A stretch of DNA of 53,348 nucleotides, taken from NCBI GenBank assembly GCA_003209895.1, contig QCOH01000009.1:1-53348 (forward strand), in the 5' to 3' direction. The first letter of the stretch is position 1. Each line of letters opens with the position of its first letter. Below the pieces are notes generated by a model, which was given only the letters and a program-made list of their open reading frames with translations, did not search any database and had not been told where the DNA came from. Positions 43,819-52,390 of this stretch are shown here, piece by piece. The position numbers and the translations under genes were made by a program. The DNA comes from Pelagibacteraceae bacterium AG-430-I06. GTDB taxonomy: Bacteria > Pseudomonadota > Alphaproteobacteria > Pelagibacterales > Pelagibacteraceae.

Positions 43819-44214
43819 TTAGCTGTTTTTTTGGTATCTAGAGTACTTCTTAGATCCCTTGTTTGGACCTACTAATATTAAGGTCCATGTTGATTTGCCC
43901 TCCGGCATCCTTAAACTGTGTCTATCAGTACCTTTTCTGAAGCCCATATACCCAGGGCCTCGCCAAAAAGTGCCATTTTCCCTAGTTTCCCAATATCCAC
44001 CTTTAAGGATGATAGTAAAATATGACCAATAATGATCATGTAGATCACCTCTATCGCTTTTTAAGATCTTATGTACGAAGATATTAAAAGGGAACCATTT
44101 GGGTCTTTTGCGAAATAATGGATAATAACGTACCATAAATGGTTCAGCCTTATCATAGTCTGGCCAACTTGGACCTCTGTCTAGCACAACACGTTTACGA
44201 TTTTTAAAAAACAT
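43819..44214 (-). CDS. Cupin-like protein of unknown function, G+C-rich relative to surroundings
   Basis: 131 residues. The centre SDRGDLHDHYWSYFTIILKGGYWE carries a His/Asp/His metal-type motif of the cupin fold; RHSLRMPEGKSTWTLILVGPNK gives the second motif with His. Similar small proteins occur in phages and bacteria. Two hand-counted 60-base lines of the gene (43861 and 43921) are about 43% and 47% G+C, while a line of the neighbouring integrase (44641) is about 17%. This contrast suggests acquisition from elsewhere. Divergent from the integrase gene with 85 bases between. Function unknown. Confidence 0.72.
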   Translation of the reverse strand: MFFKNRKRVVLDRGPSWPDYDKAEPFMVRYYPLFRKRPKWFPFNIFVHKILKSDRGDLHDHYWSYFTIILKGGYWETRENGTFWRGPGYMGFRKGTDRHSLRMPEGKSTWTLILVGPNKGSKKYSRYQKNS

Positions 44215-44267
44215 AATTCGTTATAATAAATCATAGCTTGACATCTTAAAAACGATTATTTATATTG

Positions 44268-44292
44268 TTCCGATAATTAATGGTTATCGGAA
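44268..44292. repeat. Perfect 9-7-9 inverted repeat upstream of the integrase (candidate recombination core or operator)
   Basis: Arms TTCCGATAA (44268-44276) and TTATCGGAA (44284-44292) are exact reverse complements with a 7-base spacer, ending 7 bases before the integrase ATG. The geometry equals a tyrosine-recombinase core site (two inverted binding arms around a 6-8 base overlap), and the inner GATAA/TTATC resemble Xer/dif half-sites. Autoregulation by an operator is the alternative. Confidence 0.6.
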
Positions 44293-44299
44293 AATATAT

Positions 44300-45214
44300 A
44301 TGAATGATTTAGTAACAGATGTTAAAAGCCTTGAAATTGAAACACTTAAAAATTTAAGAAGCTCTAAGGCAGAAAATACATTGAGGGCTTATAAAGCAGA
44401 TTTTAGAGATTTTTCATTATTCTGTAATCAAAATGGATTAAAGTCAATGCCTACTGATCCTAAAATAATTACAATCTACATCACGCATCTGTCTAAAACA
44501 TCAAAATTTAGCACTTTAAAAAGAAGATTGGCATCAATAAGCGTTATTCATAAATTAAATGGGCATTATTTAGATACAAAACATCCAATTATTAAGGAAA
44601 ATCTTCTGGGCATCAAAAGAGCAAAAGGTACATATCAAAAAGCAAAAAAACCTATATTAATCAATGATTTAAAATTAATTATTAATGCAATAAATCAAGA
44701 TAAAAAATCAAAAAATAATCAAAAAAATAAGGCTTTAATATTAGTGGGGTTTGCAGGAGGTTTTAGAAGATCTGAATTGGTATCCTTAGAATATGAAGAT
44801 ATAGAGTTTGTAAAAGAAGGAGTTAAAATTTTTGTTAAAAGATCAAAAACCGATCAATCTGGGGAGGGAATGACTAAAGCTATCCCCTACTTCACTAATT
44901 CTGAATTTTGTCCTGTGAAAACATTAAAAAAGTTGATCGCGCAAAGAAATATTAAATCTGGACGAATATTTGATATGTCTGACAAAAATGTATCTTTAAT
45001 AATTAAAAAATATGTTGAATTAGCTGGTTTAGATCCAAATAAATACTCTGGTCACAGTTTACGATCTGGATTTGCTACATCCACAGCTGAATTAGGAGCG
45101 GAGGAAAGAAGTATAATGGCTATGACAGGACACAAAACCACTCAAATGGTAAGAAGATATATTAAAGAAGCAAATCTATTTAAAAATAATGCTCTTAATA
45201 AAATTAAAATTTAA
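44300..45214 (+). CDS. Tyrosine recombinase / phage-type integrase
   Basis: 304 residues. The N-terminal SAM-like core-binding domain (about 1-105: ENTLRAYKADFRDFSLFCNQ, TYITHLSKTSKFSTLKRRL) is followed by the catalytic domain with Arg in AGGFRRSELVSLE, Lys in KRSKTDQSG, HSLRSGFAT (His and Arg), the late His in MTGHKTTQMV and Tyr in RRYIKEAN. All six catalytic positions are kept, so it should be active. It is not next to a tRNA. The stop codon overlaps the stop of the convergent glycosyltransferase gene by 4 bases. Confidence 0.93.
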   Translation: MNDLVTDVKSLEIETLKNLRSSKAENTLRAYKADFRDFSLFCNQNGLKSMPTDPKIITIYITHLSKTSKFSTLKRRLASISVIHKLNGHYLDTKHPIIKENLLGIKRAKGTYQKAKKPILINDLKLIINAINQDKKSKNNQKNKALILVGFAGGFRRSELVSLEYEDIEFVKEGVKIFVKRSKTDQSGEGMTKAIPYFTNSEFCPVKTLKKLIAQRNIKSGRIFDMSDKNVSLIIKKYVELAGLDPNKYSGHSLRSGFATSTAELGAEERSIMAMTGHKTTQMVRRYIKEANLFKNNALNKIKI

Positions 45215-52300: not shown

Positions 52301-52390
52301 GGAGAGGTGGCTGAGCGGTTGAAAGCACTAGTCTTGAAAACTAGCAATGGGTTTACTCATTCGTGGGTTCGAATCCCACCCTCTCCGCCA
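52301..52390 (+). tRNA. tRNA-Ser (anticodon TGA)
   Basis: A 90-base class II tRNA with a long variable arm and encoded CCA. Acceptor GGAGAGG pairs with CCTCTCC, discriminator G, anticodon stem CTAGT/ACTAG with loop CTTGAAA and anticodon TGA, T arm GTGGG-TTCGAAT-CCCAC. Divergent from mltB and ends 8 bases before the stop of sdhE on the other strand. Confidence 0.97.

Follow-up and report, generated by a model that had tools for sequence, protein, structure and literature searches.

SAR11 bacteria are described in several abstracts as among the most abundant in the ocean. A survey of dif/Xer systems reported that Pelagibacter ubique, a member of this group, lacks them, and cited the lack as evidence that non-vital systems are shed in streamlining (PMC2731167). 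The stretch of SAR11 DNA analysed here (the window, 53,348 nucleotides of Pelagibacteraceae bacterium AG-430-I06) contains a perfect inverted repeat directly before a recombinase gene. An earlier note, made from the sequence alone, had seen in the repeat the core site of a tyrosine recombinase and had proposed two uses for it, as an attachment site kept by a tiny element or as the integrase's own operator. Based on comparison across SAR11 genomes, plasmids and viruses, we propose, at a probability of about 0.86, that the repeat and the adjacent gene constitute a single-recombinase system of the dif/Xer type for resolution of chromosome dimers in SAR11. If this is true, the published statement that P. 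ubique has no dif/Xer is wrong, and the function has been kept with its machinery swapped for a plasmid-type recombinase. The proposal also offers concrete objects for testing, namely one 25-bp site and one protein. Our literature search found no title or abstract that names a dif site of SAR11.

The site and its setting in the window

The repeat reads TTCCGATAA, TTAATGG and TTATCGGAA, with perfect 9-bp inverted arms on either side of a 7-bp spacer, and a gap of 7 bases separates it from the ATG of the recombinase gene at 44300. This is exactly the arrangement that the earlier note had described. The features of the locus are as follows.

44238..44266, plus strand: probable sigma-70-like promoter of the recombinase gene, TTGACA-17-TATATT (11/12 consensus positions)
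44268..44292, plus strand: dif-like recombination core site, 25 bp, 9-7-9 (read directly; conserved; one copy per genome)
44268..44276, plus strand: left arm TTCCGATAA, putative binding site for one recombinase monomer (the right arm inverted without mismatch; also found next to viral and some plasmid relatives)
44277..44283, plus strand: central spacer TTAATGG, presumed strand-exchange region (among 105 distinct upstream regions, 84 have TTAATGG and 16 TTAATTG)
44284..44292, plus strand: right arm TTATCGGAA (read directly; conserved; viral and plasmid relatives as for the left arm)
44300..45214, plus strand: Cre-like/Xer-type tyrosine recombinase, 304 aa (PF00589, tree, structure comparison)

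The repeat is real and not a product of chance. It was the sole match in the window even when up to three arm mismatches were allowed, with a mean of 0.02 matches per window in shuffled sequence, and it is present in one copy in the source genome (77.6% complete). A single arm with up to one mismatch was not above chance in the window (20 found, 18.2 expected). These shuffles and the single copy, together with the conservation in SAR11 and the viral control palindrome described below, rule out a one-off or chance palindrome. The site is non-coding, A+T-rich and dyad-symmetric, and its 25 bp compare with the ~30 bp typical of dif/Xer single-recombinase sites. The tRNA genes of the window are kilobases from the site, the nearest being at 52301. 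On the opposite side of the site is a gene for a 131-aa protein (43819-44214, minus strand) that matches PHROG 4786, which is labelled cysteine dioxygenase, and has no Pfam match.

The promoter is weak as stand-alone evidence because shuffles give 1.3 equal matches in the same stretch; a TTGACA/TATAAT-like pattern is also seen ahead of the site in SAR11 relatives. The promoter stops two bases short of the site, and therefore the expected start point of transcription would fall inside the left arm.

Conservation and chromosomal position

To describe variation in the site we used 105 distinct upstream regions from 111 SAR11 loci (sets of 30 and 80 closest relatives and the window genome's own). 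All 105 contain GATAA-N7-TTATC immediately before the recombinase gene. The arms are of the perfect TTCC type in 86 regions and of a longer type, TTACTA..GATAA / TTATC..TAGTAA, in 16, the remaining 3 being near-TTCC variants; the longer type is arranged approximately as 13-7-13 and is imperfect. Core positions are 0.98-1.00 invariant except for one base of the spacer, compared with 0.4-0.9 in the flanks. Conservation of the arms beside homologous recombinases was the test on which the earlier note had staked its interpretation, and the arms are there in every region. A tyrosine-recombinase core site tied to the adjacent gene is thus very probable, with arms and spacer beside the recombinase in 105/105 regions, and the likeness that the note had drawn between the inner GATAA/TTATC and Xer/dif half-sites is borne out.

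Whole-genome searches found the core GATAATTAATNGTTATC in 103 of 147 Pelagibacteraceae genomes, always as a single copy, with no match for a reversed-pattern control. Among Pelagibacteraceae genomes at least 90% complete, 45 of 53 contain it. One perfect-arm site, whatever its spacer, is present in each of 92 genomes out of 397, and no second site was found in those 92. One candidate second site, in L042 with 3 mismatches, was judged to be chance. A class-wide sample of 289 genomes yielded the perfect-arm site in three, two of SAR11 and one of an alphaproteobacterium outside it (G721), where the site is again at the 5' end of a related recombinase. Both the PF00589 protein and the core site are absent from G041, G047, G055, G103, G113 and G117 (83-99% complete; 4/6 of genus g5). 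Secondary loss of the pair is possible in these six; G041, G047, G055 and G113 are at least 94% complete, and their lack of the pair reflects either loss or an assembly gap.

Position on the chromosome was evaluated in nine single-contig genomes. In all of them the distance from dnaA to the site amounts to 0.42-0.58 of the circle (with rounded lengths for G032 and G108); in one of them, G050, the spacer is TTTATTG. The terminus was estimated by a two-step fit to sampled GC skew in five genomes, and in four of them the site falls within or adjoins the skew step.

G101: skew-fit terminus 915-985 kb, site 920 kb
G034: skew-fit terminus 495-550 kb, site 492 kb
G038: skew-fit terminus 735-790 kb, site 774 kb
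G106: skew-fit terminus 990-1050 kb, site 1013 kb

In the fifth, G053, the sign of the skew flips between samples at 985 and 1050 kb, with the site at 999 kb, and the best fit falls away from the site because of one odd sample. The gamma domain of FtsK was found in 12 of 13 genomes, including all 12 that are at least 94% complete; the one without it is the window genome, at 77.6% completeness. Among 28 sampled cases of the octamer GGGNAGGG, which we take to be the KOPS of Escherichia coli, 27 are oriented from dnaA towards the site. Within approximately 5 kb on both sides of the site at 80 loci (17 contexts), 35 of 35 copies are directed at it, as are 508 of 618 composition-matched octamers. 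Strand polarity turns at the site; specificity for KOPS is only suggestive because the composition controls are also strongly polarised. One of the two copies in the window, at 44861 inside the recombinase gene, is directed away from the site. A data-driven search for polarised 8-mers returned mainly A-rich words and no new KOPS.

These results bear directly on the two uses that had been proposed for the repeat. If it served only as an operator, through which the recombinase or another regulator repressed the recombinase promoter, its place directly after the -10 box and over the expected start point would be well explained, as would the perfect dyad symmetry that is usual for operators. Such a role gives no reason to expect a terminus location in 9/9 genomes, sole-recombinase status (see below) or the occurrence of the same arms in viruses, most of which have no recombinase, and would not need a conserved spacer, so we regard an operator alone as quite improbable. 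As a second function it is possible, since the site overlaps the expected transcription start of TTGACA-17-TATATT; this much of the earlier operator proposal stands, and the terminus location and the phage copies are left unexplained by it. The other use, an att core belonging to a resident integrative element or decayed prophage, would fit the plasmid or phage origin of the recombinase and the viral relatives that have the same site beside their own gene. Against it are the 0 second sites in 92 perfect-site genomes (397 searched), the lack of HTVC-like genes in the regions flanking 111 host loci, and a single orthologous copy across the family, and we judge it highly improbable. The tiny integrated element of the earlier note was likewise rejected on the grounds of no second site and no phage genes in the flanks. 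Its second copy or empty site was missing from every SAR11 genome searched, and extra copies were found in phages. Because the pair is a fixed, single-copy feature of Pelagibacteraceae chromosomes near the replication terminus, the name of resident Xer-type recombinase suits the adjacent gene better than that of integrase.

The recombinase and comparison with known systems

The gene at 44300-45214 encodes a complete tyrosine recombinase, as had been noted earlier, with a Pfam PF00589 match of 71 bits; R156, K183, H252, R255, H278 and Y287, which we take to be the catalytic set, are all invariant in a 40-row alignment. It was found in 44 of 61 Pelagibacteraceae genomes, including all six single-contig genomes among the 61. 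In the full set of nine single-contig genomes, a PF00589 protein is always beside the site or at the site's place. This is the only PF00589 protein in seven of the nine, with one extra in each of G038 and G045. The extra protein of G045 scored below 50 bits for both XerC and XerD, far below the cut-offs. No XerC or XerD was identified in these nine genomes, where seven have one PF00589 protein and the extra protein that was scored is that of G045. The recombinase is thus usually the sole tyrosine recombinase of Pelagibacteraceae genomes that carry one.

The SAR11 protein itself does not reach the NCBIfam equivalog cut-offs, scoring 78.2 bits for XerD (cut-off 329.6) and 69.7 for XerC (335.15). 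These scores, far below cut-off, and its placement in the tree rule out identity as XerC or XerD. Genomes of the sister family mostly have two recombinases. For the five of these that were scanned, the best-scoring models were XerC- or XerD-like, at 284-331 bits; two to three of them exceed a curated cut-off, that of the general tyrosine-recombinase model (NF001399) only, and none of the five reaches the XerC or XerD equivalog cut-offs. In a 49-row tree, the SAR11 clade (100/100) is nested within recombinases of plasmids and phages (100/99) and is separate from the XerC/D of the sister family. The nearest solved structures by sequence are Cre (E 8e-26) and then XerD (1e-16), with XerH a weak match (E 4e-9), and a predicted model (mean pLDDT 85) best matches Cre-type structures, which are distant at ~17% identity in the structural alignments.

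Relatives of the recombinase are present in 2172 plasmid records. Among 14 plasmid relatives examined, those of Alicyclobacillus dauci and Aureimonas have the SAR11 arms upstream, within one mismatch, three have other perfect palindromes and nine have none above shuffles. The 188 site-bearing viral loci described below include 15 ORFs that match the recombinase profile, and 13 of these adjoin the site. Gene and site are thus paired repeatedly across proteins that are only ~27-43% identical, and this recurring pairing is the best evidence from which we infer that the arms are binding sites of the recombinase. The same arms, with quite different spacers, were also seen beside an own recombinase in viral contigs of G+C-rich hosts, namely L329, L340, L326, L366, L333, L351 and L406 (G+C ~0.6) and L335, L372 and L373, extending the site family far outside SAR11. 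By tree placement and sequence similarity, the recombinase derives from a Cre-like, plasmid- or phage-borne family that carries its site upstream of its own gene, and not from XerC/XerD. A Cre-like recombinase probably replaced XerCD in the SAR11 lineage.

The proposed system draws on conservation, single copy, terminus location, absence of XerCD-type proteins, FtsK-gamma and family placement, all of them features read from genome sequence. When sister chromosomes are fused as a dimer, two recombinase monomers would bind the two arms of each site. Two such sites would synapse, and cleavage and strand exchange across the 7-bp spacer would yield two chromosome monomers. FtsK, with its gamma domain kept, would control the reaction by bringing the sites together at the septum. 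Occupation of the promoter start by the recombinase might in addition lead to autorepression.

Several characterized systems share parts of this arrangement. The XerC/XerD-dif system of most Proteobacteria, including the sister family of SAR11, would have the same function and has inner ATAA/TTAT half-sites, with FtsK-gamma kept in both; SAR11 differs in having one recombinase instead of two, a spacer of 7 bp instead of 6, and perfect symmetry. Cre/loxP of the phage-plasmid P1 is the nearest solved relative in both sequence and fold, and both sites have symmetric arms and a short spacer. The architecture of loxP is 13-8-13, whereas the SAR11 site is 9-7-9 and lies at the terminus of bacterial chromosomes, in genomes that encode FtsK-gamma. 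By analogy, the closest precedent is XerL/dif of Legionellales as described in PMC9765430, which likewise has one recombinase and long perfect dyad arms (10-12 bp, compared with 9 in SAR11), is near the terminus, was missed by homology searches and is exploited by a mobile element with a mimic of the site. In a comparison made by description only, SAR11 differs from XerL in that its site is directly upstream of the gene and its recombinase is nearest to Cre. XerS/difSL of Streptococci and XerH/difH of epsilon-proteobacteria are described as having, likewise, a single recombinase gene linked to a dif at the terminus; those proteins are ~354-362 aa in length compared with 304 aa in SAR11, and difSL is imperfect with an 11-bp centre, in contrast to the perfect 9-7-9 of SAR11 (PMC5357621, PMC2731167).

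A table in PMC5069961 lists SAR11_1019 of strain HTCC1062 as 'xerD, integrase/recombinase'; judging from the order of genes, it is probably the SAR11 recombinase gene. The table concerns responses to sulfur depletion and gives the values 8.50 and 7.63 for SAR11_1019.

Copies of the site in pelagiphages

The arms with any 7-bp spacer were found in more than 120 viral stretches, compared with two for a control palindrome of the same composition. These viral counts rest on arm searches, since a viral scan with the 16-base core includes chance matches. A SAR11-like spacer, TTAATNG, is present in 26 viral contigs. With up to 3 arm mismatches allowed, 188 viral loci contain the site. Of these, 162 are A+T-rich, and HTVC010P/HTVC100P-like proteins are encoded in 137 of the 162 and in only one of the 26 G+C-rich loci. 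TerL is present in 115 site-bearing loci, and the site is 290-1164 bp upstream of it in 114; the one exception is L350, which has a recombinase of its own. The 24 site-bearing viral records, all possibly fragments, include 2 with PF00589, which was not detected in those of 32, 35, 38 and 53 kb. Perfect-arm sites in A+T-rich viral loci number 95, and 31 of these are identical to a host site at 25 of 25 bases. The second SAR11 arm type occurs in 30 viral contigs, 23 of them with HTVC-like proteins. Two cores within 60 bp were found in 19 viral loci, several of which pair both SAR11 arm types. In cultured isolates the perfect site was absent around TerL in all eight examined. Over the whole genome, HTVC100P and HTVC010P each contain a single site, which has 3 arm mismatches; upstream of TerL, three of the remaining isolates have a GATAA-N7-TTATC core in imperfect form and the other three have none.

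HTVC010P-type phages have been classed as lytic, with no integrase or lysogeny genes (PMC8163748, PMC6811365). Their sites usually occur without an integrase, have arms of either SAR11 type and are sometimes in tandem, which suggests that the phages use the host recombinase, and we consider such use likely. As mimics of the host site upstream of the terminase, they would allow the host recombinase to circularise, resolve or integrate the phage genome. This suggests a molecular route by which HTVC010P-type phages without an integrase might persist or circularise in their hosts, and the phage site would be a sequence tag that may link a phage to its SAR11 host lineage. In P1, loxP serves genome circularisation and dimer resolution. 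Circularisation in the style of P1 is attractive here because TerL is located in the direct terminal repeat of Skadi (PMC10504331). We hold the combined scenario tentatively, at slightly less than even odds, in which SAR11 swapped XerCD for a domesticated Cre-like recombinase of plasmid or phage origin whose own site turned into the chromosomal dif, and HTVC010P-type phages carry mimics of this dif, at times as tandem pairs fitting the two SAR11 arm types, through which the host recombinase circularises their terminally redundant genomes or integrates them at dif, giving integrase-free latency and a host tag.

The phage copies could instead be a signal for packaging or replication whose similarity to the host site is due to chance or convergence, and no substrate of the host recombinase. 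The constant place of the site upstream of TerL, the terminal repeat of Skadi and the lack of any integrated copy at the host site in 397 genomes would all agree with this; exact identity to host sites in 31 of 95 cases, the presence of both host arm types, sometimes in tandem, and other viruses with the same arms beside a related recombinase argue against it, and overall we find it unlikely. A different purpose, integration at the host dif as in lysogeny of the IMEX type rather than circularisation or multimer resolution, appears rather doubtful. IMEX elements are known users of dif mimics (described in PMC5357621 and PMC9765430), and the phage copies share with them the trait of a dif-like site on an element without its own recombinase, in records that are possibly fragments. 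Infection dynamics are also described as suggesting lysogeny despite the lack of lysogeny genes (PMC8163748). Integrated copies at the host dif were found in none of the 397 genomes, which is compatible with their being rare. No lysogen of the HTVC010P type was found at the host site among these genomes. A related TerL is present in 7 of the 397, in no case with a symmetric site nearby, and the one prophage examined has its own 425-aa integrase-like protein, with tRNA-Met nearby.

Tandem viral cores with one core of each SAR11 arm type were observed in L312, L330, L363, L385 and L389, near the terminase region where TerL is shown, and these might be dual-host dif mimics. Imperfect tandem cores are present in L205, L250, L282, L306, L540, L551 and L556. 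Prophage-like regions related to HTVC010P were also observed in SAR11 genomes, in G171:C1 at ~246700-274000 (L441, L442), G129:C7, G385:C8 and G327:C12. The integrase-like ORF mentioned above follows the region in G171, and tRNA-Cys or tRNA-Met is present on the prophage-bearing contigs of G129, G327 and G385. Given an integrase-like ORF of their own and this tRNA context, some relatives of HTVC010P look temperate by their own means.
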